A DNA stretch of 64,000 nucleotides, taken from positions 1 through 64,000 of the forward strand of contig CALUMU010000010.1 in assembly GCA_944321825.1 (NCBI GenBank), in the 5' to 3' direction. The notes beneath the pieces were generated by a model that did no database searches, had not been told where the DNA came from, and saw nothing but the letters and a program-made list of their open reading frames with translations. This document shows positions 7,300-47,730 of this stretch, one piece after another (position 1 is the first letter of the stretch; the number at the start of each line of letters is the position of its first letter). Position numbers and translations under genes: made by a program. Source of the stretch: Candidatus Amulumruptor caecigallinarius. GTDB lineage: Bacteria > Bacteroidota > Bacteroidia > Bacteroidales > Muribaculaceae.

Positions 7300-7316
7300 G
7301 TTTCAGAATTACGTGT

Positions 7317-7517
7317 GTAAGTGAGTATTCACTTTAAATTAGAATTGTCATTTCTTTAGTGAGCGTCATCGTTTTTGCTTCATCTTCAGTTTCCTTTCGG
7401 CAGCTATTCCTTTCATTGTCAGTAACGTAGCTCGCTACGCTCCCTCCTTTTCAAGAAATATCGCCTCAAAAGCAATCTCGGACTTGAAGCAAAATTGAAA
7501 ATGAACACTCACTTACT
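7317..7517. repeat. About 200-bp element bounded by imperfect 24-bp inverted repeats (MITE-like)
   Basis: The left end 7317-7340 (GTAAGTGAGTATTCACTTT and on) matches the reverse complement of 7494-7517 with about three mismatches. The interior is non-coding and contains a nested GTAGC-TC-GCTAC palindrome near 7429-7441 and a second pair of GCTTCA/TGAAGC arms. It separates rmlB from the glycosyltransferase gene. There is no transposase, so if mobile it would be a non-autonomous element. No target-site duplication was confirmed. Confidence 0.5.
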
Positions 7518-7642
7518 GGTTGTAAAAATAAATTTTGCGCAATTTACGAAAATTTCATGTAATTACCGCAACCATAGTGAATCGTCTGCGAAAAAATTGC
7601 GTTATGGGCAGCTGCTCATGGCAAGAAACGCCAATCGTGTTT

Positions 7643-8785: not shown

Positions 8786-8789
8786 CAGG

Positions 8790-9575
8790 TTATTTTTGTG
8801 GTCGGGTGGGGGTTGAAGTATGCACTATGTAGTTTTTAACCTGCTTGAACAGCTCGGTCGCGAATACGAAGTCGTTGAGAGCCTCATTGGTGGCGGTGTA
8901 TATTTCGTTCTTGTTGCCGACCCATTCGCGGCGCCCGTTGCGGAGGTAGATGATGTTTTCGCCGATACCGAGCACGGAGTTCATGTCATGCGTGTTGATG
9001 ACGGTGGTGATGTTGTACTCGTGGGTTATGTCGCTCAGCAGCTCGTCTATGAGTATGGATGTGTGCGGATCAAGCCCGGAGTTGGGTTCGTCGCAAAACA
9101 GATACTTGGGATTAAGCGCTATGGCGCGTGCTATGGCTACACGCTTCTGCATACCGCCGGAAATCTCAGAGGGATACTTGTCATCCGCTCCTTTGAGGTT
9201 CACACGTTCGAGGCAGAATTGCGCCCGGTCTTTCCGTTCTGCCGGTGTCATGTCGGTGAACATCATCAGCGGAAACATCACATTGCCCAGCACTGTCTCA
9301 GAGTCAAACAGTGCCGAACCCTGAAACAACATGCCTATTTCCTCGCGCAGCTTCTTTGTCTGGTCCACCGACATCTTCATCACGTCACGTCCGTCATAAA
9401 GTATCTGCCCTTCTTCGGGCTTGAGCAGTCCGACAAGCGATTTCATCAATACCGTTTTTCCCGAACCGCTCTGCCCGATAATCAGATTGGTCTTGCCGGT
9501 GTAAAATGTCGCGTCCACACCGTGAAGGATGGTCTTGTCGTCAAATGATTTGGTTACACCCTTGACTTCTATCAT
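8790..9575 (-). CDS. mlaF: Mla-type phospholipid ABC transporter ATPase
   Basis: A 261-aa ABC ATPase with Walker A GQSGSGKT (about 34-41), signature SGGMQKR, Walker B YLFCDEP and an H-loop INTHDMNSV. Closest in style to MlaF/Ttg2A, which powers movement of phospholipid between inner and outer membranes. The start overlaps the MlaE-type permease stop by 4 bp. MlaD-like and periplasmic partners are not in the window. The C-terminal tail after about residue 240 is short and lacks the usual regulatory extension. Confidence 0.88.
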   Translation of the reverse strand: MIEVKGVTKSFDDKTILHGVDATFYTGKTNLIIGQSGSGKTVLMKSLVGLLKPEEGQILYDGRDVMKMSVDQTKKLREEIGMLFQGSALFDSETVLGNVMFPLMMFTDMTPAERKDRAQFCLERVNLKGADDKYPSEISGGMQKRVAIARAIALNPKYLFCDEPNSGLDPHTSILIDELLSDITHEYNITTVINTHDMNSVLGIGENIIYLRNGRREWVGNKNEIYTATNEALNDFVFATELFKQVKNYIVHTSTPTRPQK

Positions 9576-10321
9576 TGGAGCATAAGTTTGGTGAGTATTA
9601 CATCAAGGAGCAGTATCATGATGCTGCTTGTCACTACGGCGTTGGTGCTGGCTTTGCCCACTTCGAGGGCGCCACCTTTGACGTAGTAGCCGCAATAGCT
9701 TGCCACAGAGGTTATGACCACTGAGAAAAACAGCGATTTTATCAATCCGTACCATACATACCATTCCTGGAATTGGGTCTGTATGCCGTAGATATATTTC
9801 GACACGGAGATGATGCCCGTAGCAGCTGCTATCAGATAGCCGCCGAGCATGGTCGTGAATATGCAGAACACCACAAGTACAGGCATGAAAAACAAGAACC
9901 CTACTATCTTAGGCAGCACGAGGAAGTTGCATGAGTTGATGCCCATTATTTCCAGCGCGTCGATTTGCTCCGTCACTCTCATCGTGCCTATCTCTGAGGC
10001 GATATTACTGCCTACCTTGCCTGCAAGTATGAGGCACAATATGGAGTTGGAGAACTCCAGCAGCACGATTTCTCGTGTGGCGAGACCTGTCGAATAGCTC
10101 GGTACGAGAGGGGAGGAGAAGTTGAGCTGCATCTGTATCGTGATCACCGCTCCGATAAACAGGGCTATGATGATGACAAGCGGTATGGAGTCTACACCTA
10201 ATTTTTGTATCTCGAAAACCGTGCGTGAAAAAAATACTCTCCACTTGTCGGGGATACAGAATACACGCCTCATAAAAAGGCAGTATTTGCCGAAATTGGC
10301 TATGGATTTGGTGAAAATCAT
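9572..10321 (-). CDS. mlaE: MlaE-type ABC permease
   Basis: A 249-aa inner-membrane protein with about five to six hydrophobic segments. It contains the MlaE-family cytoplasmic coupling motif EIGTMRVTEQIDALEIMGI (around residues 110-128). It pairs with the ATPase directly downstream in retrograde or anterograde lipid trafficking to keep outer-membrane asymmetry. It is the first gene of the leftward pair. Confidence 0.9.
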   Translation of the reverse strand: MIFTKSIANFGKYCLFMRRVFCIPDKWRVFFSRTVFEIQKLGVDSIPLVIIIALFIGAVITIQMQLNFSSPLVPSYSTGLATREIVLLEFSNSILCLILAGKVGSNIASEIGTMRVTEQIDALEIMGINSCNFLVLPKIVGFLFFMPVLVVFCIFTTMLGGYLIAAATGIISVSKYIYGIQTQFQEWYVWYGLIKSLFFSVVITSVASYCGYYVKGGALEVGKASTNAVVTSSIMILLLDVILTKLMLQ

Positions 10322-10373
10322 CTGTCGTGTTATCTAACTTGGAGTATTTATAGGACCGTAGTGTAGGTCGCCG

Positions 10374-10381
10374 CAAAGTTA
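10374..10381 (-). promoter_or_regulatory. Bacteroidetes -7 element for mlaE-mlaF
   Basis: On the minus strand this is TAACTTTG, matching TAnnTTTG, about 50 nt before the mlaE start. No clear -33 TTTG is seen. It is divergent from the udk promoter. Confidence 0.5.
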
Positions 10382-10393
10382 CTGAAAAAATCA

Positions 10394-10424
10394 CTTGTAT
10401 TATAAAATTTAATGGTTAACTTTG
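10394..10424 (+). promoter_or_regulatory. Promoter of udk-lptB
   Basis: CTTG at 10394-10397, a 19-nt spacer, and TAACTTTG at 10417-10424. This matches the Bacteroidetes primary sigma consensus and lies about 97 nt before the udk ATG. Confidence 0.65.
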
Positions 10425-10521
10425 CCAATATATGCGTCCAAACGGCGCATAATGTATAGTACCTCATAATATATAGTACATCATAGCACCTCGCCGTTAA
10501 CCACCCCATACATATATCTCC

Positions 10522-11145
10522 ATGTTAGTCATAGGCATAGCCGGAGGCACAGGTTCTGGCAAGACCACAGTAGTAAATAAGATTATTTCGGCTCTCCCTC
10601 CGGGCGAGGTGGCTGTCATATCGCAGGACAACTATTATAAAGACTCAAGCCACGTACCCCCGGAGGACCGTCAGAAAATCAATTTCGACGAGCCTGCAGC
10701 TATCGAGTGGTCTCTGCTCGTGGCGCAGATTAAGGCTTTGCGTGACGGTCACACCGTAGAGATGCCGACCTACAGTTATCTGACTTGCACACGTCAGAAA
10801 GAGACGATAACAATCGAGCCTCGCGATGTGGTGCTTGTGGAAGGCATACTGGTACTCACACAGCCTCAGCTATGCGACATGATGGATGTGAAGGTTTTTG
10901 TCGATGCCGATGCTGATGACCGCTTGATTCGTGTCATCACCCGTGACTGTGTAGAGCGTGGGCGCACCCCCATGATGGTTATCAACCGTTATCAGGATGT
11001 CCTGAAACCTATGCATAACATGTATATCGAGCCTTCGAAAAAGAAAGCTGATCTTATAGTCCCGCAGGGCGGTAACAACATCGTGGCTGTTAATCTTCTT
11101 ACCGATTATATCGAATCACGACTCAGACACCCTAATATAAAATGA
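10522..11145 (+). CDS. udk: Uridine kinase
   Basis: A 207-aa P-loop kinase. GGTGSGKT at residues 8-15 binds ATP; DNYYKDSS and FDEPAA are uridine-kinase family motifs; EGILVL follows. It phosphorylates uridine and cytidine for pyrimidine salvage in the cytoplasm. Full length for the family. The stop codon overlaps the next ATG (ATGA at 11142-11145), so udk and the LPS-export ATPase share a message. Confidence 0.95.
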   Translation: MLVIGIAGGTGSGKTTVVNKIISALPPGEVAVISQDNYYKDSSHVPPEDRQKINFDEPAAIEWSLLVAQIKALRDGHTVEMPTYSYLTCTRQKETITIEPRDVVLVEGILVLTQPQLCDMMDVKVFVDADADDRLIRVITRDCVERGRTPMMVINRYQDVLKPMHNMYIEPSKKKADLIVPQGGNNIVAVNLLTDYIESRLRHPNIK

Positions 11146-11954
11146 TTGACCAGCAGGAGGACATTGCCGGCAGTATTCCCTTGTCCCAAACGCCGGAACA
11201 CGCAGAAGGCGGCAAGATGGTGCTTCGCACTGACAATCTTGTCAAGAAGTACGGTAACCGCATCGTAGCCAATCACGTGTCGATAGATGTCACGCAGGGT
11301 GAAATCGTAGGTCTCCTCGGTCCTAACGGTGCAGGTAAGACCACGACATTCTATATGACGGTAGGGCTTATTACCCCTAACGAGGGGCGGATTTTCCTCA
11401 ATGACCTTGATATAACCAAGTACCCCGTGTACCGGCGTGCCCAGAACGGCATCGGCTATCTCGCCCAAGAACCGTCGGTGTTCCGAAAACTGTCAGTCGA
11501 GGATAATATCCTTTCGGTGCTTGAGATGACAGGCACCTCCAAGGAGTACCAGCGTGACAAGCTCGAATCGCTTATAGAAGAGTTCTCATTGCAGAAAGTT
11601 CGCAAGAATCTCGGCGACCAGCTTTCAGGCGGCGAACGGCGACGCACCGAAATAGCCCGCTGTCTTGCCATCAATCCCAAGTTCATAATGCTCGACGAAC
11701 CGTTTGCCGGGGTTGACCCCATTGCGGTCGAGGATATTCAGTCGGTGGTCTATAAGCTTAAGGAGAAAAACATCGGCATACTAATCACAGACCACAACGC
11801 TCCTGAGACGCTCAGTATCACGGACCGTGCCTACTTGCTTTTCGAAGGTAAAATCCTCTTCCAGGGCACCAGCGAGGAGCTCGCATCTAACCCCATAGTC
11901 CGAGAGAAATATCTCGGTCGCAACTTCATATTCCACCGCAAGCAGTTTGACTGA
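11142..11954 (+). CDS. lptB: LPS export ABC transporter ATPase
   Basis: Up to 270 aa. The ABC domain starts near residue 27 (LRTDNLVKKYGN) with Walker A GPNGAGKT, signature LSGGERRR and Walker B MLDEPFAGVDPIAV, a sequence characteristic of LptB. It drives extraction of LPS from the inner membrane with LptFG and the Lpt bridge. The ATG at 11142 is coupled to udk; an internal ATG at 11217 behind GAAGG would give a more typical 245-aa protein, so the first 25 residues may not be translated. Confidence 0.93.
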   Translation: MIDQQEDIAGSIPLSQTPEHAEGGKMVLRTDNLVKKYGNRIVANHVSIDVTQGEIVGLLGPNGAGKTTTFYMTVGLITPNEGRIFLNDLDITKYPVYRRAQNGIGYLAQEPSVFRKLSVEDNILSVLEMTGTSKEYQRDKLESLIEEFSLQKVRKNLGDQLSGGERRRTEIARCLAINPKFIMLDEPFAGVDPIAVEDIQSVVYKLKEKNIGILITDHNAPETLSITDRAYLLFEGKILFQGTSEELASNPIVREKYLGRNFIFHRKQFD

Positions 11955-11995
11955 TGCCAGGCGGATTTAGAGACTGTCTGTAAAAAGAGCAGGCT

Positions 11996-12265
11996 CTAAA
12001 GTAGTTTTGTAGCGGTGATTTCGCCGGAACCTCCGCATATGGGGCATGGCTGGTGGATGGCGGCCATGGAGTCGGATGCTGCGGCATATGTTTCCACCTC
12101 ATTGCATACGGAGCAGCTTTGATGTATGGCCGAAGCGTATTCAGCTGTATGGTTCTGTATGTCCGCAGGGATAGAGTCATGGTTTTTGCCATCAGTGGTG
12201 AACGCAAGCGCGATTGCCGATACTGATACTGCTGCGGCTATGGCCAAGGAGTGTCGTATTCTCAT
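11996..12265 (-). CDS. Small exported protein with two CxxC pairs
   Basis: 89 aa with an N-terminal signal-like segment (MRIRHSLAIAAAVSVSAIALA). The mature part has CSVC and, at the C-terminus, CPICGGSGEI. The second resembles half of a DnaJ-type zinc repeat, so the two pairs could together bind one metal ion. No close family is recognised. It stands alone between convergent lptB and a divergent lipoprotein gene. The frame is plausible because of the signal peptide and paired cysteines, but expression is unproven. Confidence 0.5.
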   Translation of the reverse strand: MRIRHSLAIAAAVSVSAIALAFTTDGKNHDSIPADIQNHTAEYASAIHQSCSVCNEVETYAAASDSMAAIHQPCPICGGSGEITATKLL

Positions 12266-12572
12266 TGTCAGGATATTTAGTTAACCAGTTTTAATTTAAT
12301 AGAATAATTTCCCAGTCGTATTTTGGAATGATAACACCTAAGTGTGTTTGATTGTTTTATGACTGTTATATTTGGCGCAATCACCTCTGTCTGCCAATTC
12401 GTATTATATTAGGCTGGAAGATATTCATAATGCGTTAAATTGAGTTAAAATGGGGGGGGGTAAAAACTGGATGGATTTATTTTCTTACATTTACAAAAAC
12501 GGATATGCAAAGGTGGGGTGGTATTACACCATTCCGATTAAATAATAGTTACATTTAAAAAACACAAGTGCA
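12266..12572. other. Intergenic region with a G9 tract
   Basis: No gene is seen. A run of nine G (12452-12460) lies about 110 nt before the lipoprotein start. A weak -7-like TACATTTA follows near 12486. Homopolymer length could affect local promoter spacing, but no -33 element is clear. Confidence 0.4.
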
Positions 12573-13172
12573 ATGAAAAAACTGTTGACATTTATGACAT
12601 TGGCTGCAGTAGCTTTGATGCCGATGTCTTGCAAGAAAATCGCGAAGGATCTGATTGATTCAGCTACCGGGACTGAGATGGACAGCTCTGCCGCATTGGA
12701 GAAAGCCGCCGAGGCTGTAGCCAAAATCGATACTACCCAGTATAAAGTTACCATAATCAATCTCTCAGCCGAAGGCCCCTCCGACAAATGCTCCAACAGT
12801 CTTGGTTTCATAATGCTTACCATGGTCAACAAGGACAACCAGTATTATTACCAGCATTTCTATCCCAATGTCGACGCTCCCAAGCCGAAAAACTACCCCT
12901 ATAAGGAAAAATGGGAGGATGTAAAGTCGCTCAGCTTCGACACCAAGAAACTCGAAGGATTGGTAAATGAGTGCAAGAGCATGATTCCGAAAGAATATAA
13001 ATATTTGTGCCTTAATGATATACGTATGACCAGCGATGAGACGGAGCTGACCGTGCATGTCCAGGAGATAGGCAAGGAGAAAGTAGAGTCGGCCGGTGTC
13101 AGCTCCGATGTATATTATGTGATACGGTTCAAAATCACCCCTGACGGGCAGATTGATATGAAATTTGACTGA
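12573..13172 (+). CDS. Lipoprotein of unknown function
   Basis: A 199-aa protein with a lipobox ending at Cys20 (ALMPMSC), so it should be lipid-anchored after signal peptidase II. The mature region is a lysine-rich alpha/beta domain with paired cysteines (KCSN near 69, NECKS, YLCLND). The C-terminal strands end in DGQIDMKFD. I do not recognise the family. It sits 12 bp before a broken DUF6624 gene in the same direction and may have formed a two-gene unit with it. Confidence 0.7.
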   Translation: MKKLLTFMTLAAVALMPMSCKKIAKDLIDSATGTEMDSSAALEKAAEAVAKIDTTQYKVTIINLSAEGPSDKCSNSLGFIMLTMVNKDNQYYYQHFYPNVDAPKPKNYPYKEKWEDVKSLSFDTKKLEGLVNECKSMIPKEYKYLCLNDIRMTSDETELTVHVQEIGKEKVESAGVSSDVYYVIRFKITPDGQIDMKFD

Positions 13173-13184
13173 TTCTGAAAGTAT

Positions 13185-13768
13185 ATGAATCAGGTGGCTC
13201 TCTTTGCGTTTTTCGTCGCGATGTTTTCCTTGTCCGGGTATGCTCAAAGCAATCCGGCATTGAAAGCCGAGTTGGAGCGGATAATGGAATCGGACCAGGT
13301 TCCGCGAAATGAGTATGTTGCTGCACTCCGCGCCCAACATCGTGACAGTGTCTTGATTGAACGTTTGGTTAAGACCATATTGCACAACGACAGCGTGAAC
13401 ACTGTCCGCGTCACGGAGATTCTCGACACGCACGGGTTTCCGACACTGGCTGAGGTAGGGGACATAAACATTGCGGTCTGGGCTGTCTCATACAGCATTC
13501 CGACATCGCGCTGATTGACAAATATATGCCGCAGTTTCTCGATGCCGCTAAAAATGGTGATTTGCCAAAGAGGTATGTAGCTACTATGTATGACCGCTGC
13601 GAGGTTTGGCATGGCCGCCCGCAGAAATACGGCACTCAGGGTACCATGGACGAAAACGGCGCGTTTGTCCCGTCTGATTTGCTTGACCCGGCAAGGGTGG
13701 ACGAATGGCGGGCCGAAATGGGCTTGCCGCCCTTGGAGGAATACATCCGGCAGATGAATCGTAAATGA
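13185..13768 (+). pseudogene. DUF6624-family exported protein, frameshifted
   Basis: The first frame (13185-13514) has a signal peptide ending near GYA and runs to AEVGDINIAVWAV. The second frame begins IQHSDIALIDKYMP and ends at 13768 with the family's DRCEVWHGRPQKYGTQ motif. Deleting the TC at 13488-13489 joins them as AVWAVIQHSD, the expected continuous DUF6624 sequence. The cause looks like a TC dinucleotide duplication in GTCTC, or a sequencing error. No function is known for the family. If the lesion is real, the gene is inactive unless ribosomes slip. Confidence 0.75.
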
Positions 13769-13796
13769 GATGATGCCATTTGTTTTGACGGTCAAG

Positions 13797-13833
13797 GTGA
13801 GTATTCTATTTTGAAAGTGAGTAGAATACTCAC
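13797..13833 (+). terminator. Hairpin after the DUF6624 gene, possible terminator
   Basis: GTGAGTATTCTA (13797-13808) pairs perfectly with TAGAATACTCAC (13822-13833), with a 13-nt loop and TTTCC then TATTTTA after it. The 10-mer GTGAGTATTC also begins the inverted repeat at 7321. Confidence 0.55.
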
Positions 13834-13990
13834 TTTCCTATTTTATCGGTTCGGCAGGGTTATTCTTGGGAAAACGAGACTCAATGTCGGTTATTGTCTG
13901 CCTATATTTTGACTATATCGCTGCGGCGGTTAAAGTTTTTTATATATTATAGTTGTGGATGATATGTTGCGATTCTTTAACTTTGACATA

Positions 13991-14030
13991 GAACTGATTT
14001 AACATTTTGAAATAAGTTTAAATCAGTTCA
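13991..14030. repeat. Dispersed repeat, palindromic 40-bp unit
   Basis: GAACTGATTTAA (13991-14002) is the inverse of TTAAATCAGTTC (14018-14029). Positions 13995-14030 recur nearly exactly at 50465-50500, at the right end of a larger element. Here only the end-like palindrome is present, 31 nt upstream of bcp. Confidence 0.6.
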
Positions 14031-14060
14031 TAATCTCATATCAATCAAATATCAAATATT

Positions 14061-38908: not shown

Positions 38909-40282
38909 TTATATAGAAATTGGTTCATTATCTATCATGCAATTATCTGGCTTTGATAGCATGTTTCCATTTTTGTGATAATATTTTATTCGGCAGTTTC
39001 GTAGTGCGCATGAAGTATTTAATTTACATGTGCCGCATGTCTCAATGTCATGTAAGTTTGTATTTCCTCTGACAGAGTTCCAAGAGCTATGACTTGATTG
39101 CCATATGTCGATTAAAGAGTCCGTTGTTAGATCTCCGGTTTCAAGTTCAGGTATTCCGAATGCATACAGACATGGATATGTTTTGCCATTGGAACTTATT
39201 GCCATTCTTTTAGTGCCGGCTGCACAAAAGACTTTTTCTTCATTACTAAATCCGGACAGTTCTTGCTTTGCGCTTAAATCTGGAAAATCTATTTTGATTG
39301 AGGTTGAATACTCATCGGCTATTTGTCTCAGTATCTTCCTCATATTGTGTTCAATACTCTTGTTAAGAATTAACGGTTTATTTATTGCAGCTCTACCTTC
39401 TGGTTCTACGAAAGAGACCGACATTGCTGTGACGCCTTCTGAAATCATAAATTTTACAAATTCTTTAAAATGAAGGTAGTTTCTGCTATGTAGTGTATGT
39501 GCTATGGCAAATTTTGCATTGTTTTGTTTTAAAAGTCGTATAGTTCTAATGGTAGGAATAAATGTGTTTTTACCACGCAATAATTCGTGAGTTTCTGCAG
39601 TATGACCGTCAAGAGAAATTGTTGCAGAAACATTTTTGTTTTTAAATATGTCTATGTTGTTTTCGTTTATTCTTAATCCATTCGTGAGAATTGCAATGCT
39701 TATGCGCTTTCGTGCTAACTTACGTAATAAGTTGTCGGCATCAGGATACATGAACGGTTCTCCGCCACTGATAACAACACTTAAAACCTTTGCATCTTCC
39801 ATTTGTGAGAATATATTATCCCATGTGTCAGGAGATAACAATGTGCCATGATTGCTGTGCGATGTGGAAGATTGAAAACAATGAAGGCATTTTAGGTTGC
39901 AGTTATGGGTTAGGTGTAGTTCGATATTCATCGGTGTTGAACATACTGGCACCGTATAAACATCGCCGATTTGTTGAATATCAGAGGGTGAATGTAAGGG
40001 AATGGACGACTCAATAAATAGTTTTTCAAGTCCAAATTCGCCTTCTAAATCAGAGGGATTGGCAAACGGCAAGACGATGCCATGCTTTGCCAACTCTGTT
40101 TTTAGAGCCTTATAAGATAGCGAATTGTAATAGAAACAACGTATTATCTGATATAGACCCTCATTAATATAGGTTAGGTTTTCGTTATCAATATTATATA
40201 AGCAATGTTGATTATTGTAATTTAGGTCGTTGCGTAATATCCAACGTGGAGAAATCGTTATGTTTGTATCAGTTGGGATCAT
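38909..40282 (-). CDS. Radical SAM/SPASM peptide maturase with PqqD-like N-terminal domain
   Basis: 457 aa. Residues about 12-100 (WILRNDLNYNNQHCLYN, LTYINEGLYQIIRCFY) resemble a PqqD-like RiPP recognition element. The radical SAM core has CNLKCLHC (Cys128, Cys132, Cys135), GGEPF and a TIM-barrel pattern. The C-terminal SPASM region carries CAAGTKR, YPCLYAFG and a cluster CGTCKLNTSC-LRNC with a final DNC, enough for auxiliary iron-sulfur clusters. It should install thioether, C-C or similar crosslinks in the peptide encoded 65 bp upstream. The exact chemistry cannot be read from sequence. Confidence 0.92.
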   Translation of the reverse strand: MIPTDTNITISPRWILRNDLNYNNQHCLYNIDNENLTYINEGLYQIIRCFYYNSLSYKALKTELAKHGIVLPFANPSDLEGEFGLEKLFIESSIPLHSPSDIQQIGDVYTVPVCSTPMNIELHLTHNCNLKCLHCFQSSTSHSNHGTLLSPDTWDNIFSQMEDAKVLSVVISGGEPFMYPDADNLLRKLARKRISIAILTNGLRINENNIDIFKNKNVSATISLDGHTAETHELLRGKNTFIPTIRTIRLLKQNNAKFAIAHTLHSRNYLHFKEFVKFMISEGVTAMSVSFVEPEGRAAINKPLILNKSIEHNMRKILRQIADEYSTSIKIDFPDLSAKQELSGFSNEEKVFCAAGTKRMAISSNGKTYPCLYAFGIPELETGDLTTDSLIDIWQSSHSSWNSVRGNTNLHDIETCGTCKLNTSCALRNCRIKYYHKNGNMLSKPDNCMIDNEPISI

Positions 40283-40297
40283 TTTGTGTATATTTAA

Positions 40298-40326
40298 TAA
40301 TGTAACGGCTAATAGCCGTTACATTA
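40298..40326 (-). promoter_or_regulatory. Intercistronic hairpin between precursor and maturase genes
   Basis: TAATGTAACGGCTA (40298-40311) and TAGCCGTTACATTA (40313-40326) are perfect inverse arms around one base. No T-run follows on the minus strand, so it is better read as an mRNA-stabilising or partial attenuating structure than as a full terminator. Confidence 0.65.
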
Positions 40327-40347
40327 TAATCGGGATAATCGGTGGAT

Positions 40348-40551
40348 TTAGTTAAGAGGAGGTGTTGTAGGTTCTTTAGGTTGGATGGTATCGTTGGGAT
40401 TATCTTGTTTGAACGGTTGAGTCGTATTGCAGCAATTGTATGCACCTTGTTGGATGAAAACATGTGTAGTGGTTGTAGCACTAAAACCTCCACGGATATG
40501 TTGCAATTCGTTTTCATTAAAAAGTGCGAGTTCCAAATTGTTTTCGTTCAT
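40348..40551 (-). CDS. RiPP precursor peptide with double-glycine leader
   Basis: 67 aa. The leader LALFNENELQHIRGG fits the GG consensus at each key position: Phe(-12), Glu(-8), Leu(-7), Ile(-4), Gly(-2), Gly(-1). The predicted core (45 aa) starts FSATTTTHVFIQQ and contains a Cys-Cys pair (NCCNTT) and a proline/threonine-rich tail. The arrangement, GG leader followed by a radical SAM/SPASM enzyme, resembles the GG-Bacteroidales natural-product precursor systems. The Cys pair and flanking Thr/Asn residues are candidate modification sites. The core itself matches nothing I recognise. Confidence 0.82.
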   Translation of the reverse strand: MNENNLELALFNENELQHIRGGFSATTTTHVFIQQGAYNCCNTTQPFKQDNPNDTIQPKEPTTPPLN

Positions 40552-40653
40552 GATTGTAAATGAAATTTTAATGGTTATAAACTTGGCTACCGTAACGCGC
40601 GTTTAGGTTGCCGTTGGTTATATAATTCAGTACTGTCTTATTTCATTCTAAGG

Positions 40654-41037
40654 TCAGAATACCAAAGTTGCTGACAGGGTTGCGCCGGTATCTGTTGTTG
40701 CCTCTATATATGCTGTTCCGCTCATAGGAGGAATGTCGCAGCAAGGGTCGTCTTGGCTGACAAAGCCGCTCCACATACATCCGTTAGCGTCAGTGATGTC
40801 AACCTCCATATATTCTACGTCGGCTGGCAAGTCAAAGCAGATTTGTTCGCGCGAGTAGCTTAAAAATATGGCTGTAGATTTGATTTGTTTGCCATAAAGA
40901 CCGCGTGAAAAATGGCGGTTGGGTGACTTCGTGTATTGAAGGGCTGCTTGCTGAGTAGTACTGTGTTCCTCAGCACCGACACCTGCGGGGGCGAGGGCGA
41001 GAACCAATGATGTGATTAATGATGTAAGATGTTTCAT
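40654..41037 (-). CDS. Exported DUF3244-like beta-sandwich protein
   Basis: 127 aa with a signal peptide ending near GVGA (residue 22). The mature part, IFLSYSREQICFDLPADVEYMEVDI then a Cys-rich loop and SGTAYIEATTDTGATLSATLVF, has the strand pattern of the DUF3244 family, small Ig-like proteins of Bacteroidales without known function. It is the first gene after the left copy of the 668-bp duplication and lies 102 bp before the precursor peptide. A decayed copy occurs at the equivalent place in the right unit (45198-45371). It may be a surface or immunity accessory. Confidence 0.65.
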   Translation of the reverse strand: MKHLTSLITSLVLALAPAGVGAEEHSTTQQAALQYTKSPNRHFSRGLYGKQIKSTAIFLSYSREQICFDLPADVEYMEVDITDANGCMWSGFVSQDDPCCDIPPMSGTAYIEATTDTGATLSATLVF

Positions 41038-41062
41038 AGCTGTCGTGTTATGTTTACGGCTG

Positions 41063-41070
41063 CAAAGTTA
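41063..41070 (-). promoter_or_regulatory. -7 element for the DUF3244-like/RiPP unit
   Basis: Minus-strand TAACTTTG (then CAGCC), 26 nt before the DUF3244-like ATG at 41037. The same sequence at 45399-45406 serves the right-hand unit, and TATCTTTGCAGCC precedes the TPR gene. Confidence 0.6.
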
Positions 41071-41091
41071 TGCTGTGATAATGGATGAAAC

Positions 41092-41433
41092 CTAAAATTT
41101 CGGGTATTTTCAGTGGACTTTTACTATTTGTAAGTGATTGATTGATAGCGGTGTATGTAAAAGTCCAATCAGACTTTTTGGACTTTTGCGTAAATGCCTG
41201 AAAATTAGAGGATGTGGTTGGACGGCACTGCAATAAAAGTCCAATGAATCCCTGCCGTTGTGCGATATCCAGGGCCTCTGTCACCATAGAGCCTGTATCA
41301 TGTGTCATGCTTTTCACATGATGTATTCTAAGGAGATTCTGTTTGACTGTGCTATCGGCTGGCAGTGTCGCAGTCGATAGAGATAATGTGATAGATTTGA
41401 GCATTGCAGTGTGAGTTTTTTGTTGATTTTCAT
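41092..41433 (-). pseudogene. Internally deleted remnant of a TPR-regulator gene (left)
   Basis: After a TAACTTTGCAGC promoter box (41438-41445) an ATG stub begins at 41433. Near 41237-41265 the DNA matches the 3' end of the intact TPR gene (the region encoding DRDSLDF) but in a shifted frame, and the text downstream of that gene (TTTTCAGGCATTTACGC) also follows. The open frame through the segment has no family match. I infer a start and a tail joined by deletion. Confidence 0.4.
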
Positions 41434-41659
41434 GCTGCAAAGTTAGGGTCTGAGGGTGGGTTAGGAGGGGTCTTTGTAGATTAATGATTGGTTTTTTGAT
41501 AAAATAATCTGACTTGTAATATGTTGATTTGTAGTGTGTTAATTGCTGTAGTGAAATTGAACTATCGGTTTTTGTGGTTTTTTGAGGCGTCGGAGTGGTT
41601 TTGCCTTGCTGGCAGTGGAAGATATGGGCTGCGATGGGAGCAAAATCCGTCATATACGA

Positions 41660-41870
41660 TGGTCACGGCTTGCGCCGCCAGCCCTTGGCAGGGCTGTCTG
41701 GTAGGCGTTGGTTTAATAACGGGGCTTGCGCCCCGCCCTACTGTTTTTACGCACCCTCCGGGAGCTTTTGTGGAGCTGATTGGGCGGATGCACTTCCTGC
41801 AACGTACATGGGCGAGGGTGTTGCAGGACATCGGAACACTGTAGGGACGCACGGCCCGTGCGTCCGAAAC
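41660..41870. repeat. GC-rich palindromic repeat cluster
   Basis: Contains CACGGCTTGCGCCGCC, CAGCCCTTGGCAGGGCTG, CGGGGCTTGCGCCCCG and, at 41843-41867, GGGACGCACGGCCCGTGCGT. These are the same modules as at 21271-21714. They are far more GC-rich than the surrounding AT-rich island. Confidence 0.75.
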
Positions 41871-41980
41871 CGCAAACCGCCCCGAGCTGGATCTCACGAC
41901 TTAGCACCCATCGCTTTGATCTGTCGGGTAATGGTTTGCGTAAATGCCTGAAAATTAATGTATGTGATGATACGTCATGA

Positions 41981-43753
41981 TTATAAAAAGTCCAATGAAT
42001 CTCTGTCGTTTTGCAGATACTTAAGAAAACGTTCGCCTTTGTTGTCCTCAAGTTCTTTCAGCTTGCCGCGCAGGCGTTTTTTCCGCGTGTATACCGGCTC
42101 TATCTTGTCGGCATCAATCAGCCGTGCTATGGCCGCAGATGACAGTCCAAACAGGTTGAACAGGAAAAGTTTGTAATCCTCTTCCTTGATGTTAGGAAGA
42201 GCTTTCCTCAAATCGGCCATAATGTTATCGAAACATTGGTTTGCTATATCTTCCAAAGCTTTAAGTTTTTCGGGCGAGCTGCCCATCTCTTTTGTCAGGT
42301 TGTCGAGCCAGGATGTGAGTTTGCCAGATGCGGCATCTTTAGAGGGATTCTCCCAAAGGATTCTGCACGCCTTGTCAATCATCTGGTAGTGTTTTGTGGC
42401 GTGGAAGGCTGCTATCTGCTTCTGTTGGCTAACAGCATCATTGATTTGGTTGATTTCATCGGTCAACTGGTCGATTGTAGTTTGTTTTTGTTCAACAGTT
42501 TCAGACAGAGATTCGCTCTTGCGCTGTTCCATGGCGCGAAGCTGTATGGTCTGGTGCAGCTTTTGCGCTATTGCCTCGTTTTTAAGGTGTTCGTACCGTT
42601 GCTTGCGCCGTATGATAAAAATAATAGCTGTAGATGTGGATAAAAATAGTATGCTGCATCCTATCGTGAGCCACAGTATTGTTCGGGCTGTCCGGCTCTC
42701 TCTCTTTGCATTTTCTTTCTCCTGTTCATGATGTTGGAGTACGGATAATGTGGCACTTTGTTTAAACCTATCATATATAAGTGCTTCATTCTGTCTGTGC
42801 ATTGATTTTAATGCCTTAAACGCTGAGTCCCTATTTCCATTCCGTGTATAAATCTCATATTTAAGACCATCAATGATATCCGAAGGGGCATCAGGAGTTG
42901 CATTTAGTTTGTGTAAAATGATAGCTGCACTATCGTTTTGACCAGTCAGAGCATAGCATAGTCCGAGAAATGCCATATCTTCAGATGACGATACTGGAGA
43001 GGAGCATAAGTCGCGTAAATAAACTATGGATTCCTTTTCTTTATTGGAAGCTATGAGTGAACGCACCAACACACCCAGTATTTGTTTCTTTAACTCTTCG
43101 TCTGGTCGCTTTTTTAGCGAATCAAGTAATTGATAACTAACAGTTTGGCATTCTTGATTCATCCGATGGTTGTGATAAGCTTCTGCTAAGTCGTATAGAG
43201 ACCAATCCATAAATGGCTGCCGGCCGGATTTTTGCATATAATCATATGCTTTCTTTGCATAATTAACTTCTTCTGCCGGATTAAATGTTTGCTGAAATAC
43301 GACGCATATTTCACGACATATAATTGAAGCATAAAAATAATTGTTGGTTACTTCGGCAATATCTAATGCTTTAATGAGAGATTTTGTACTTGGGATAATG
43401 GAATCATTTCTCATTAAAATAACTCCATGGTACAGCATCGCCAACATCAGGTGGGTCTGTTCGTCAGGGTTATTACTGTAATAATTTACGGCAACATTTA
43501 TCAGAGAGTCGTTTGAATCGTGGTATTGGTTTTTTATACGCGCTTGGGTGTAGAGCAGCGCGTATCGCGCCCGGTCTTTTTCGGTTCTCAGGCTTTCGCT
43601 GCGCAGGGTGTCGAGCATGGCGAGGGCGGAGTCGGGATGCTCCTCCATGACGCTCTCGGCATGGTCAAGCGTCGCGATGATGTCGCCGTCGGTCGATGTG
43701 CATGACACGCACAATGCCATAATGGCTATCAGTATGTAGATTATATGGTACAT
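41981..43753 (-). CDS. Membrane-anchored TPR lipoprotein, probable sensor/regulator
   Basis: 590 aa. The signal ends in a lipobox, IMALCVSC (Cys18). TPR-like helices fill about 25-335 (for example HPDSALAMLDTLRSE). A transmembrane helix lies at about 365-388 (TILWLTIGCSILFLS), then a coiled coil (about 395-470) and a C-terminal cytoplasmic helical domain with GLSSAAIARLIDADKIEPVYTRKKRLRGKLKEL, similar to a helix-turn-helix. This layout is common in Bacteroidales proteins thought to couple outside signals to transcription. It lies between the two effector units and has its own TATCTTTG promoter, so it is a candidate controller of the island. Confidence 0.75.
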   Translation of the reverse strand: MYHIIYILIAIMALCVSCTSTDGDIIATLDHAESVMEEHPDSALAMLDTLRSESLRTEKDRARYALLYTQARIKNQYHDSNDSLINVAVNYYSNNPDEQTHLMLAMLYHGVILMRNDSIIPSTKSLIKALDIAEVTNNYFYASIICREICVVFQQTFNPAEEVNYAKKAYDYMQKSGRQPFMDWSLYDLAEAYHNHRMNQECQTVSYQLLDSLKKRPDEELKKQILGVLVRSLIASNKEKESIVYLRDLCSSPVSSSEDMAFLGLCYALTGQNDSAAIILHKLNATPDAPSDIIDGLKYEIYTRNGNRDSAFKALKSMHRQNEALIYDRFKQSATLSVLQHHEQEKENAKRESRTARTILWLTIGCSILFLSTSTAIIFIIRRKQRYEHLKNEAIAQKLHQTIQLRAMEQRKSESLSETVEQKQTTIDQLTDEINQINDAVSQQKQIAAFHATKHYQMIDKACRILWENPSKDAASGKLTSWLDNLTKEMGSSPEKLKALEDIANQCFDNIMADLRKALPNIKEEDYKLFLFNLFGLSSAAIARLIDADKIEPVYTRKKRLRGKLKELEDNKGERFLKYLQNDRDSLDFL

Positions 43754-43783
43754 TCCTGTGACAGATTATAAAGATTTCGGCTG

Positions 43784-43791
43784 CAAAGATA
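43784..43791 (-). promoter_or_regulatory. -7 element of the TPR lipoprotein gene
   Basis: Minus-strand TATCTTTG followed by CAGCC, 31 nt before the ATG at 43753. Confidence 0.6.
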
Positions 43792-43912
43792 CGAAAATAT
43801 CCTGAAATATATGTGTATAAACATCTGCGCCGCTCCACCCTCGCTGGTTACGAGGACAGGAACGGCGTAGAAAACCTTAAGTCAAACGCGCTAATTACAT
43901 GACTTCGGAGCG

Positions 43913-44251
43913 TCAAGAGATGCTGCTACGCTGCCGCTTTATTGCATACAGATAGAAAAATAATGAGAGAAGTATTGTGCCGATGGCTAAGATACAGCCT
44001 GATATTGCGATGCCTAACCGCATACCGGCAGTGTCTATTTCTTCGGTGAGTGCATCCATGCTCCTTGAAATCATTATGATGCCGGTAGCCCAGGCGGCAA
44101 CTGCCAATATAGACTGGCATATTATCAGGTTGCGGCGGAATTTTTTCTGTTCGAGGCTCTCGGCAGCTGCAATCAGAGGCCCCCATATATTGCCGAAAGG
44201 CAGCACAAGCCCTAAAAGACTTAGCAAAGCCATATTTTTTTCTGCTTTCAT
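43913..44251 (-). CDS. Small membrane protein (DUF4870-like topology)
   Basis: 112 aa with three hydrophobic segments (about 8-28, 42-60 and 79-103) and a basic tail IKRQRSSIS. The start MALLSLLGLVLPFGNIWGPLIAA resembles DUF4870-type proteins. It starts 5 nt after the stop of a 13-codon stub of the 133-aa family (44257-44298), so it seems to have been inserted in place of that gene. Possible immunity protein for the upstream lipoprotein; inference only. Confidence 0.6.
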   Translation of the reverse strand: MKAEKNMALLSLLGLVLPFGNIWGPLIAAAESLEQKKFRRNLIICQSILAVAAWATGIIMISRSMDALTEEIDTAGMRLGIAISGCILAIGTILLSLFFYLYAIKRQRSSIS

Positions 44252-44256
44252 TTGTG

Positions 44257-44298
44257 CTAAAATAAAGGAAGTATATATACTTGCTTGGTTGCGTTCAT
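44257..44298 (-). pseudogene. Five-codon stub of the 133-aa membrane-protein gene
   Basis: MNATK followed by eight unrelated codons and a stop. The leader (AATTGTGATGAATG-GTTACTTATGAAGCGG on the plus strand) and the first five residues are the same as at 46587. It marks where a third copy of that gene was lost. Confidence 0.6.
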
Positions 44299-44325
44299 AA
44301 TCAATAATTGTGATGAATGAGTTAC

Positions 44326-44520
44326 TTATGAAGCGGAGATTATATCGGCTATATGCTCATATGCTGCAGCTGCAAACAGTATCAGCAGCATAGTATTATG
44401 CTCCTTGTATAACTGTTTGTGGTCGTCCGACATGTCTGCGGTGTTCTTTTTCATAAGATCGTGTATGCACATGATTGTTCCGGCGACAAATGCGGCGGCA
44501 AGTATCCAGTGTCTAATCAT
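44326..44520 (-). CDS. 64-aa membrane protein, paralogue of 46612-46803
   Basis: One N-terminal hydrophobic segment (HWILAAAFVAGTIMCI), a charged middle KKNTADMSDDHKQLYKEHNT and a second hydrophobic helix (MLLILFAAAAYEHIADII). It is about 90% identical by eye to the 63-aa product at 46612-46803. It directly follows the lipoprotein gene, with 12 bp between. Paralogues in two positions suggest a small immunity or accessory protein; no family is recognised. Confidence 0.65.
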   Translation of the reverse strand: MIRHWILAAAFVAGTIMCIHDLMKKNTADMSDDHKQLYKEHNTMLLILFAAAAYEHIADIISAS

Positions 44521-44532
44521 ATTTATTATGCT

Positions 44533-45096
44533 TTATTCTGTCATGCAATCGATAAAGTCATATGCGAAAAGACCCCATCCGACAACAGGAACTGCACGTT
44601 TCAATAATGCTTTTGCAATTATTTTGGCTGCTGCTTTTTTGCCGGGACCTTCTATCAATGCTTTTATTCCCAAACCTTCTAATACACAGCCTCCAATCGT
44701 TGTACGTGAGGTGGGTGTTGTATTGAGCGTTCTGTCAATGTCTGCGATTGCTAACGCAACGAGAGCGATTCTGGGATCATCATTGTCAAAGTATTCACTC
44801 AGGTCAATGTCATTTAACTCGAGATAATCTTGTGATAGTGCTACAAAATCATTAATGGACTCTTCCAATGGTTCAGATAATTCTGAGTTTCGACTATCGG
44901 ACTGGCTGAGTTGTTTGATTCGATATAACTCATTTATGTAAGATGCAGTACCAATAATAGGTGATTCAACGTCGTTTGCTCGTTGAGTATTATTTGCTTT
45001 TGGAGCATCATCATTTTCCGAGTCGCATGACTGCAAAGTAAGAGCAGGAATTGACAAAGTTGCAAATAACATGAATGTTAGAAAAAACTTTTTCAT
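44533..45096 (-). CDS. Lipoprotein with cysteine-bracketed cationic, hydrophobic C-terminal tail
   Basis: 187 aa from the ATG at 45096, where a standard signal begins; the frame opens 16 codons earlier without a signal. The lipobox is LTLQSC (Cys24). Residues 25-130 are acidic and helical. The last 51 residues, from IGGCVLEG (Cys137) through KKAAAKIIAKALLKRAVPVVGWG to FIDC (Cys184), are basic and hydrophobic, with a Gly-Gly just before the first Cys. Such a tail could be a membrane-active peptide released or displayed from the lipoprotein, a guess. It occupies the place held by the RiPP precursor in the left unit and is followed by small membrane proteins. Confidence 0.65.
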   Translation of the reverse strand: MKKFFLTFMLFATLSIPALTLQSCDSENDDAPKANNTQRANDVESPIIGTASYINELYRIKQLSQSDSRNSELSEPLEESINDFVALSQDYLELNDIDLSEYFDNDDPRIALVALAIADIDRTLNTTPTSRTTIGGCVLEGLGIKALIEGPGKKAAAKIIAKALLKRAVPVVGWGLFAYDFIDCMTE

Positions 45097-45197
45097 AATG
45101 AAAAATTGAATAAAAATATTGTGATGGATAATTGATATTGACAACTGTGACGCGTATTAGTTGCCGAGGGTTATATAATAAGGGTATACCGTATTAT

Positions 45198-45371
45198 TCA
45201 TTGGTTTATAGTTGTTTGCAATCTACATAAAGGCTTCCGTATGGCCGATGGGGAGATGTCGGTATCTGTGGTTGCCTTTATGATTGTTGACATACCCTTT
45301 GGCAATACTGCATCCGTCAGTGCTGGGTGCTGGTAGGACAAAGGATAATTATTACATGAGAACTGTCGCAT
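45198..45371 (-). pseudogene. Decayed DUF3244-like gene
   Basis: 57 codons. The leader after the TAACTTTGCAGCCGTAA box matches that of the intact gene at 40654-41037, and the segment encoding IIKATTDTDIS aligns with YIEATTDTGATLS. Most of the middle and the signal peptide are missing. The frame happens to stay open but does not encode an exported protein. Confidence 0.55.
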
Positions 45372-45390
45372 ATTGCTGTTGAGTTGTGAT

Positions 45391-46058
45391 TACGGCTGCA
45401 AAGTTATGATGGGATAATGGATGAAACCTAAAATTTCGGGTATTTTCAGTGGACTTTTACTATTTGTAAGTGATTGATTGATAGCGGTGTATGTAAAAGT
45501 CCAATCAGATTTTTTGGACTTTTGTGTAAATGCCTGAGTATTAATGGACGCGATGATACGGCATGGTCATAAAAGTCCAATGAATCTCTGCCGTTGTGCG
45601 ATATTCAGGGCTTCTGTCACCACAGAATCTATGTCATGTGTCATAATTTTCACAAGATGGATTCTAAGGAGATTATGTTTGACCGGGCTATCGGCTGGCA
45701 GCGTAGCAGTCAATAGAGATAATGTGATAAATTTGAACATTGCAGTATGAATTTTTTGTTGATTTTCATGCTGCAAAGTTAGGGTATGAGGGTTGGTTAG
45801 GAGGGGTCTTTGTAGATTAATGATTGGTTTTTTGATAAAATAATTGTAGATGTAATATGTTGATTAACAGAAGTTTAATATTGACGATGTAATTGTACCG
45901 CAGGTTTTTGTGGTTTTTTGAGCTGTCGGAGTGGTTTTGCCTCGCTGGCAGTGGAAGATATGGGCTGCGATGGGAGCAAAATCCGTCATATATTATGGTC
46001 AGGGCTTGCGCCGCCAGCCCTTTGCAGGGCTGTCTGGTAGGCGTTGGTTTAATAACGG
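45391..46058. repeat. 668-bp duplicated segment, right copy
   Basis: Same orientation and length as 41055-41722. It ends in the GC-rich repeat module in both copies. Its minus-strand -7 box (45399-45406) now faces the decayed DUF3244-like gene and the lipoprotein. Confidence 0.88.
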
Positions 46059-46130
46059 AGCGCAAGCTCCGTCACAAGGGCGCACCACATGGAGTTAGCC
46101 CTGCCAGGGCTGGCGGCGCAAGCCCCGGCG
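45995..46130. repeat. GC-rich palindromic repeat cluster
   Basis: CAGGGCTTGCGCCGCC and AGCCCTTTGCAGGGCT (46000-46030) recur inverted at 46092-46125 (AGCCCTGCCAGGGCTGGCG, GCGCAAGCC). CGGAGCGCAAGCTCCG lies between. Shared with 21271-21714 and 41660-41870. Confidence 0.75.
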
Positions 46131-46185
46131 GTTACGCGTCGGTTGTGGACACTTATATTTTATATATATATCGGAACCGTGGCGG

Positions 46186-46587
46186 TTACTTGTTGCTCTT
46201 GACGAGACGGCCTGTGAAGAGGGTGACGACAAGTGCCGCAACCCATACGCCTGTCAGGGCGGTGGCAGCGGTCAGGTAGTCCATCGATCCGGTCATCGGG
46301 TTCATCAAGATAAATATCTCCGCAATCAGGAGCAGACATGACAGAGCACGGGTGGTGCGGGCATCGAGGATGCGCTTGCCGTTGTAATCGTCGGTGGCGA
46401 TGAAAGCCCGGCTCCAGAGGGTCAGGAACGCCCACACTCCCATGCAGCATACGCCCATTTCGCTCCAATGTCGCAGGTCGGGGAGGTCTGAGCCGGTCCA
46501 GTATATTACCAAGCATGCGGCGGCAAACAGGGCATTGATGACGTAGTTGCCGAGATAGGAGAATTTGTAATGTTTAGTTGCGTTCAT
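46186..46587 (-). CDS. Small membrane protein, paralogue of 36125-36544
   Basis: 133 aa with four predicted membrane helices. It is nearly the same as the 139-aa protein at 36125 through the first 115 residues and differs mostly in the C-terminal tail (TLFTGRLVKSNK). It starts 24 bp after the 63-aa membrane gene, forming a pair. A stub of a third copy is at 44257-44298. Immunity or accessory role is inferred from position and duplication only. Confidence 0.7.
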   Translation of the reverse strand: MNATKHYKFSYLGNYVINALFAAACLVIYWTGSDLPDLRHWSEMGVCCMGVWAFLTLWSRAFIATDDYNGKRILDARTTRALSCLLLIAEIFILMNPMTGSMDYLTAATALTGVWVAALVVTLFTGRLVKSNK

Positions 46588-46611
46588 ATTTAATTGTGAT
46601 GAATGGGTTAC

Positions 46612-46803
46612 TTATGAAGCGGAGATTATATCGGCTATATGCTCATATGCCAAGGCTGCGAACAGTATCAGTATCATAGTATTATGCTCCTTGTATAACT
46701 GTTTGTGTTCGTCCGACATGTCTGCGGTGTTCTTTTTCATAAGATCGCGTATGCACATGATTGTTCCGGCGACAAATGCGGCGGCAAGTATCCAGTGTCT
46801 CAT
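46612..46803 (-). CDS. 63-aa membrane protein, paralogue of 44326-44520
   Basis: Two hydrophobic helices flank a charged loop KKNTADMSDEHKQLYKEHNT. Nearly the same as the 64-aa product at 44326. First gene of the rightmost pair, with a TACCTTTG box at 46866-46873 on the minus strand. No effector gene precedes it here. Confidence 0.65.
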   Translation of the reverse strand: MRHWILAAAFVAGTIMCIRDLMKKNTADMSDEHKQLYKEHNTMILILFAALAYEHIADIISAS

Positions 46804-46865
46804 AAAAAGTCTGAGGAATTAACGGTTTGTAGATAATGATGGTTGCTTAAGTAACAAATGCTCCG

Positions 46866-46873
46866 CAAAGGTA
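46866..46873 (-). promoter_or_regulatory. -7 element for the 63-aa/133-aa pair
   Basis: Minus-strand TACCTTTG, 63 nt before the ATG at 46803. Confidence 0.5.
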
Positions 46874-46948
46874 TGAAATTTTTCGGAATTTATCACCGTT
46901 TGTCAGATTTATCAGACTTATTCGAATTTCTCCGCAGTCCGCAGCGCG

Positions 46949-47524
46949 TCAGCGGATGATTTTGACCTGGCCGTCGGCCGACAGCTTGATGATAGATGAG
47001 GCGCGGTGGGGTGCGGTGTCGTCGCGGCGGTGGTATGCCACATAGTCGGCTGCAGCGAGCAGGGCAGGGGTTATCTGGCTGAACAAGGCAGGGGAGGGGG
47101 CGCCGCTGATATTTGCCGAGGTGCTGACTATGGGGCGGCGCAGCATTCTGCACAGACGCGATGCGTAATCATCGGCAGGGATGCGTATGCCCACGCTGCC
47201 GTCGGCTGCCAAAAGGTTGGGCGCGAGGTTGATGCCCCTGTCATAGATGACAGTCAAGGGGCTGACAGCCGCGTCGAGCAGCTCGTAAGCCACATCGGGG
47301 ATGTCTGCCACATACCGCTCGAGCATGGCTATATCGCTTACAAGTGTGATCAGGGCCTTGCTGTCCTCGCGCTGCTTGAGGCGGTAGACCCGGGCAACTG
47401 CGTCGGGATTGGTGGCATCGCACCCGATGCCCCATATGGTGTCGGTGGGGTAGATGATGATGCCGCCTCGGCGCAGGGTGTCGACGGCTTGCCGGAGATC
47501 GTCGGTGAGTGGCAGGTGTGTCAT
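46949..47524 (-). CDS. L-threonylcarbamoyladenylate synthase (Sua5/YrdC/YciO family)
   Basis: 191 aa from the ATG at 47524; an upstream extension of 32 codons lacks conservation. It shows GGIIIYPTDTIWGIGCDA, KQREDSKALI with the KxR...S/T-K nucleotide site, and STSANISG near residue 145. It makes threonylcarbamoyl-AMP for the t6A modification of ANN-decoding tRNAs, or is a YciO-like relative. It marks the return to core genome after the peptide island. Confidence 0.88.
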   Translation of the reverse strand: MTHLPLTDDLRQAVDTLRRGGIIIYPTDTIWGIGCDATNPDAVARVYRLKQREDSKALITLVSDIAMLERYVADIPDVAYELLDAAVSPLTVIYDRGINLAPNLLAADGSVGIRIPADDYASRLCRMLRRPIVSTSANISGAPSPALFSQITPALLAAADYVAYHRRDDTAPHRASSIIKLSADGQVKIIR

Positions 47525-47730
47525 GTCGCAGGATTTGACTCCAAAATTAGCCAAATCGACGCGGATATGCAAATCACGCCGACAGGCAGCCGACGGGTGC
47601 GTAGGGGCTTGTGAATCCATGCGTGAGTAGTCATATATGGCAGAAATCCTACCAATCTGCCATATGTGTCAGTCATAGAGCTTGTCTGGTAAATGGGTGA
47701 TAGTGGCTTCCTGTGCCTCCTCAACCTTTT

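Follow-up and report, generated by a model that had tools for sequence, protein, structure and literature searches.

Few families of antibacterial toxins are known from the Bacteroidales; one account lists the BSAPs, the bacteroidetocins, Fab1, BfUbb and BcpT (PMC9308784). Fab1 / RFab1 of Bacteroides fragilis is described as an antibacterial proprotein with a released C-terminal fragment, an immunity gene directly downstream, a patchy distribution and orphan immunity genes (PMC8406203). BcpT of Phocaeicola is described as a predicted surface lipoprotein whose C-terminal part is active and whose N-terminal part serves as a chaperone or shield, again with a small immunity gene (bcpI) downstream (PMC9308784). 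In Caulobacter, Cdz is reported as a surface-held, contact-killing bacteriocin, and its immunity protein CdzI as a small multi-TM protein of the inner membrane that acts against a membrane-targeting toxin (PMC5380434). The bacteroidetocins, or class II double-glycine bacteriocins, are likewise products of Bacteroidota, of about 40-50 residues and with cysteines, according to their description (PMC8546649).

The locus studied here lies in a window of 64,000 nucleotides, by which we mean the whole stretch of DNA that was analysed. Its lipoprotein and the adjacent small gene have features of the Fab1/BcpT type, namely a lipobox followed by the acidic residues DSENDD, as read from the sequence, and a small downstream gene, which is found in 20 of the 21 loci of the family described below. 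By analogy, the window lipoprotein would work like Fab1, BcpT or Cdz, a likeness in presumed mode of action. Fab1 is larger, at about 50 kDa, and releases a fragment of 28 kDa (PMC8406203), whereas the window protein has 187 aa and a tail of 51 residues; RFab1 is reported there as having no recognizable domains, and it is set apart from the window protein by description. BcpT, also compared by description, has 499 aa and is activated by C11 proteases at two LTR sites (PMC9308784). A C11 protease has one match in the genome from which the window comes (its own genome).

With a probability of roughly 60%, we read the locus as a two-gene antibacterial cassette, in which a lipoprotein carries a disulfide-closed, membrane-targeting bacteriocin and a 64-aa inner-membrane protein is the candidate immunity protein. 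We favour this reading because an outward-type signal, an acidic shield and a two-Cys, cationic, Gly-rich tail combine with a small divergent membrane partner, an accessory distribution and a location in the slot of a RiPP precursor. The features are as follows.

41036-41725, no strand: left copy of a 690-bp block, upstream of the unit of 127-aa protein, RiPP precursor and radical SAM enzyme
41981-43753, minus strand: possible regulator of the unit, a TPR protein of 590 aa that weakly matches DUF6377 and the BT3442 family
43913-44251, minus strand: third gene of the operon, of doubtful membership, for a protein of 112 aa in which three TM helices are predicted
44326-44520, minus strand: candidate immunity protein of 64 aa, 12 nt behind the lipoprotein gene, with two TM helices predicted
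44533-45096, minus strand: lipoprotein of 187 aa with an acidic helical N-domain and a Cys-bracketed C-terminal tail, candidate bacteriocin precursor
44536-44688, minus strand: tail, residues 137-187, with invariant Cys137 and Cys184, a cationic middle and a Gly-rich hydrophobic end, conserved family module
45025-45096, minus strand: type II signal peptide and lipobox LQSC (residues 1-24), then DSENDD, read from the sequence
45243-45302, minus strand: remnant of a paralogue of the 127-aa protein of the left unit, with the promoter block on one side and the lipoprotein on the other (tblastn 45% over 20 aa, E 0.013; 22-bp DNA block at 91%)
45372-46061, no strand: candidate regulated promoter, the right copy of the 690-bp block (89% identical to 41036-41725), which contains TGGACTTTT boxes as well as TAACTTTGC elements that face the lipoprotein
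46612-46803, minus strand: 63-aa paralogue (92%) of the candidate immunity protein, with no lipoprotein gene beside it

The frame at 44533-45096 (minus strand) is open. Its lipobox, LQSC, ends in the lipidated Cys24 and is followed by DSENDDAP, and the N-part carries a net charge of -16 over 106 residues, in agreement with the preliminary description of a lipoprotein with an acidic N-part. The DSENDD stretch resembles the acidic surface-export signal reported for lipoproteins of Bacteroidetes (PMC5080379). Between Cys137 and Cys184 the net charge of the tail is +3.

Two other details of the preliminary description fared less well. It had stressed a Gly-Gly-Cys in the last 51 residues, and Cys137 is indeed the first of these and directly preceded by Gly-Gly; GGC occurs, however, in no more than 2 of 20 members, one of which is the window protein. 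Therefore the Gly-Gly is no conserved double-glycine site, and we rejected it as a site of C39 cleavage. The amphipathic stretch seen in the tail was not borne out either: its maximal hydrophobic moment over 14 residues is 0.40, which 691 of 1000 shuffles of the window tail reach, and a strong amphipathic helix was accordingly rejected for it. When nine tails were compared with their shuffles, there were two for which at most 15 of 1000 shuffles reached the real value.

A search with the tail alone, as had been suggested, and the profile searches that followed it placed the two-Cys tail in 20 further loci, a recurrence beyond chance. Among 393 genomes of the order, the last 59 residues matched G388 (E 2.6e-7, 39% identity) and G510 (E 0.003); both are lipoproteins of a size similar to that of the window protein, and in both the next gene encodes 63-65 aa with two hydrophobic stretches. 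Iterated profile searches, combined with a reading of the loci, brought the total to 21 distinct loci, the window counted, with the 20 further ones spread across the Bacteroidota. One of these (L050/L093) is without the N-part, and in another (L054/L104) the tail is partly masked. Named hosts are Pontibacter fetidus, Olleya marilimosa CAM030, a Flavobacteriales bacterium, a Balneolaceae MAG and a Bacteroidales MAG.

The class profile matched 15 of 395 genomes at E <= 0.01, over the whole length only in the own genome and G844. At the level of the phylum, 22 of 395 were matched at E <= 0.05 and 13 kept (two fragments or broken, one partly masked). Within the families of G1117, G844 and G1074, matches were found in 9 of 92 genomes (6 kept, one cut by a transposase gene and one a fragment), 7 of 140 (6 kept) and 2 of 3, respectively; matches were dropped after their coordinates or frames had been read.

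Over the whole length, the aligned members are just 14-29% identical to the window protein. All 19 members that were aligned share the lipidated Cys, the two Cys of the tail and one Gly without exception, and the tails follow the consensus C-A-x-x-A-x-G ... K-R-x-L-G-x-(I/V)-G-x-A-I-A-x-Y-x-F-x-D-C-M, which lies close to the C-terminus. The tail Cys are 47-65 apart, the last of them 2-9 residues from the C-terminal end. Tails are positively charged in 17 of 20 members and N-parts negatively charged in 17 of 20.

These proteins form an unnamed family of surface-type lipoproteins with a two-Cys, membrane-active-looking tail and a small membrane-protein gene directly behind them, scattered in the Bacteroidota. 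We found no description of it in the literature searched, a search that covered sources other than subscription papers and preprints. Against Pfam, NCBIfam and PHROGs the window protein gave weak or sub-threshold matches only, and a scan of 19 members against the same libraries and PADLOC revealed no family common to more than one of them. Searched alone and over its whole length, the window protein matched only itself among genome contigs; it had no relative among viral contigs and no tblastn match among plasmids and phages, and the family members had none in the plasmid collection. The best matches to PDB sequences (E 0.052 for the tail profile and 0.01 for the whole profile) were to unrelated molecules, and the window tail alone gave one match, at E 0.25.

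No conserved processing site was seen among the members. In the window protein, Arg131 lies in the linker, six residues ahead of Cys137. Seven of 20 members (L027, L048, L071, L077, L079, L082 and L086) carry, as judged by eye, an A-x-A-type motif [AV][YF]A ahead of the tail. It is suggested that these motifs resemble signal peptidase I sites inside the lipoprotein and may mark a processing point. For the window protein, which is without the motif, such a second signal-peptidase-like site was rejected.

The preliminary description had noted a small downstream membrane protein with a paralogue, and this stands: the 64-aa protein is 92% identical to the 63-aa copy at 46612-46803. One rule served for the members and for control ORFs, the latter taken from the same DNA and no shorter than 150 aa: we recorded the next gene, its size and, by a simple hydropathy scan, its predicted TM helices. 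The next gene was an ORF of 40-130 aa with at least one predicted TM helix in 20 of 21 members, as opposed to 15 of 209 controls; with at least two, the counts were 17 of 21 and 6 of 209. Partner lengths are 44-125 aa in 20 of the 21 loci. The exception, L089, has a longer partner of 154-180 aa, depending on the choice of start, with four predicted TM helices.

Besides the lipoprotein, none of the neighbour families is found at more than two loci (E 1e-8). Since only the lipoprotein recurs among the neighbours and the partner gene is coupled to it, the conserved unit consists of two genes, and the 112-aa third gene of the window is outside this pair. Type I secretion genes are not recurrent among the neighbours, in contrast to Cdz, which is described as two glycine-zipper proteins with type I export (PMC5380434). 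The partner also differs from BcpI, reported as a 57-aa lipoprotein (PMC9308784), in being a candidate with two TM helices.

Class II double-glycine bacteriocins are described as cut from a leader at Gly-Gly (PMC8546649), whereas members of this family carry a lipoprotein signal and rarely GGC. A C39 peptidase ABC exporter was confirmed with Pfam near L028 only. A C39 motif scan of 23 stretches found no other, with a motif that missed the L028 exporter too; a 228-aa ORF in L098 is similar to that exporter.

Immunity proteins often diverge fast. Over 19 pairs, the mean normalised similarity was 0.09 for the partners, which are nearly unalignable, as against 0.23 for the tails. Strong divergence of immunity proteins has been reported for CDI ionophores (PMC11630599). 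Co-divergence of tail and partner was weak and not significant (Mantel rho 0.21, with 326 of 5000 permutations as high).

The duplication of the partner gene covers about 236 bp only and excludes the lipoprotein. The 64-aa gene is a duplicate of its 63-aa counterpart at 46612. Because the start of the 133-aa gene is part of the segment that was duplicated, the one beside the lipoprotein is probably the derived one. The 63-aa and 133-aa membrane proteins form an orphan pair at 46186-46803, with no lipoprotein gene, and could be orphan immunity.

The pair shows an accessory, gained-and-lost pattern. Among 297 genomes of the host's taxonomic family, a relative of the lipoprotein over its whole length occurs in the own genome only; 22 others matched at E <= 0.1 and were dropped as partial or in frames of other size. 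The 64-aa protein was likewise confined to the own genome among 139 genomes of the host's family, with two copies there. One relative, L061, is a fragment. In L073 (1018-1635), a transposase gene directly behind a relative truncates its tail. The locus L055/L105 holds two ORFs like the N-part and the tail of the lipoprotein in different frames, either a broken copy or two separate genes.

That the lipoprotein takes the position of the RiPP precursor in the left unit had also been claimed, and at the DNA level we can confirm it. The 690-bp block (89%) lies upstream of both units, and behind it follow collinear blocks: a promoter block of 65 bp at 89%, 22 bp of the remnant of the 127-aa gene at 91%, and 29 bp at 83% directly ahead of the start of the lipoprotein or the RiPP precursor. 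In the left unit, the block is followed by genes for the 127-aa protein, for a RiPP precursor of 67 aa with a GG leader and for a radical SAM/SPASM enzyme; in the right unit, by the 127-aa-gene remnant and then directly by the lipoprotein. The lipoprotein is thus in the precursor's slot, as the collinear blocks, the remnant and the 29-bp stretch are shared with the RiPP unit. It lacks a Bacteroidales GG leader, and only the left unit has a radical SAM gene. The RiPP unit itself spans 38909-41037, where the enzyme, a GG-leader peptide with Cys-Cys and the 127-aa protein of secreted type were recognized.

The own genome holds two full copies of the 690-bp block and, elsewhere, short matches only. 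In each copy the TAACTTTGC elements are oriented toward its unit; TAnnTTTG is a promoter type of the Bacteroidales. With at most one mismatch, TGGACTTTTAC has 7 matches in the window, all inside the two copies, and 0 of 100 shuffles reach 7. Within each repeat, TGGACTTTT boxes are arranged in inverted pairs (41100-41250 and 45440-45580), likely an array for binding a regulator. No Rfam family was found in 40000-47700. The repeats are direct, lie 4336 bp apart and flank the lipoprotein/TPR segment, which recombination between them could excise or amplify.

AlphaFold was given six sequences with shallow alignments. The full-length lipoprotein is predicted to be all-helical (pLDDT 65, pTM 0.58), with helices at 36-63, 67-94, 110-125, 134-142, 145-148, 153-166 and 171-186. 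Structure prediction of the tail, proposed earlier as a check, gave a mixed answer: its blocks reach a pLDDT of about 61-81 in the full-length model, but modelled alone it is helical and weaker (pLDDT 54.8, pTM 0.28). The tail may therefore be structural, not free but folded onto the acidic domain. Folding best with the N-domain would fit a shielded protoxin such as the one reported for BcpT (PMC9308784), and a structural tail too. Foldseek gave no match at E 0.001; the best, VIA Z 6.3 (rmsd 3.6, 94 aligned), is typical of helical bundles, and against solved proteins the fold searches gave generic, uninformative matches of this kind only.

A structural tail would suit an envelope complex, in which the tail, a helical hairpin that anchors in the membrane, would dock an outer-membrane lipoprotein on a small inner-membrane protein, in a housekeeping or stress role in the own cell. 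The strict pairing with a small membrane protein and the higher AlphaFold confidence of the tail within the whole protein both agree with this. We nevertheless consider it unlikely, since the gene is confined to one of 297 genomes of its family, the partners are nearly unalignable, copies are degraded or interrupted (L073 by the transposase gene; L055, where the tail is out of frame) and the promoter slot is held in common with a RiPP precursor.

The same shared regulation argues against a self-acting envelope toxin-antitoxin pair, whose lipoprotein would hit the own cell once the small protein is lost. The tight pairing of two genes is what such a pair would show, and the orphan 63-aa copy would fit an antitoxin as well; lipidation and acidic export-type signals, however, would point outward and not to the own inner membrane, and we regard this reading as quite improbable.

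We give little credence to superinfection exclusion or another anti-phage role for a lipoprotein with a membrane partner. An accessory distribution would be expected of it, as would the combination of a small lipoprotein with a membrane protein, but no PADLOC or PHROG family is common to the members, no phage or viral contig matched, and a positively charged two-Cys tail would hardly be needed. Least probable is a signal or pheromone precursor, its tail released as a peptide and sensed by the TPR protein, for although a small released peptide is conceivable and the 590-aa TPR protein adjoins in the window, that protein is not conserved beside other members and a hydrophobic two-Cys tail of 51 residues would be large for a pheromone.

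In the bacteriocin reading, the precursor would be exported by Sec, lipidated at Cys24 and transported to the outer membrane, where it would face outward, as the acidic residues after the lipidated Cys suggest. The acidic N-domain would hold the tail soluble and harmless, and a Cys137-Cys184 disulfide, to which the invariance of both residues points, would close the helical tail into a loop. Freed by proteolysis, or delivered by contact or vesicle, the tail would insert into the inner membrane of competing Bacteroidota and permeabilise it, presumably through pore formation, while the 64-aa two-TM protein in the producer's inner membrane would block it.

The antimicrobial role proposed in the preliminary description is thus upheld in part. 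In its favour are the invariant Cys, the coupled membrane gene, the polymorphic partners, the scattered distribution, the RiPP slot and, at L028, a C39 ABC exporter and a class II bacteriocin-like peptide in the vicinity of the pair, but the Gly-Gly is no processing signal, amphipathicity is weak and the tail is perhaps folded on the acidic domain. Against it, too, stand window-tail amphipathicity no better than in shuffles, a tail that may be structural, the weak tail-partner correlation (rho 0.21), three of 20 tails with a net charge of 0 or -2, four of 19 members that, as judged by eye, have fewer than two acidic residues within eight positions of the lipidated Cys, and the lack of a conserved processing site.

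As a new group of antibacterial toxins that carry their own self-protection, the family members are good candidates. Only tentatively do we extend this to a phylum-wide class of lipoprotein-tethered, disulfide-closed, membrane-active bacteriocins, in which a small surface-borne pore-former would use general lipoprotein export in place of a dedicated exporter, be countered by fast-diverging two-TM self-protection and, behind one regulated promoter, be swappable with a RiPP precursor. The compact two-gene cassette, found in several Bacteroidota lineages and outside the family libraries searched, would add a class to the known toxins of the Bacteroidales. It would also show RiPP and lipoprotein effectors to be exchangeable behind one promoter, offer a handle on how contact-independent toxins leave Bacteroidota cells, and provide lipoprotein/partner pairs ready for tests of immunity specificity.

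In the L028 locus, the lipoprotein pair lies in a cluster (6540-14046) together with class II bacteriocin-like peptides, a thioredoxin-like protein and the C39 ABC exporter. The cluster also holds two near-identical HTH-like proteins that end in an ISGGF stretch.
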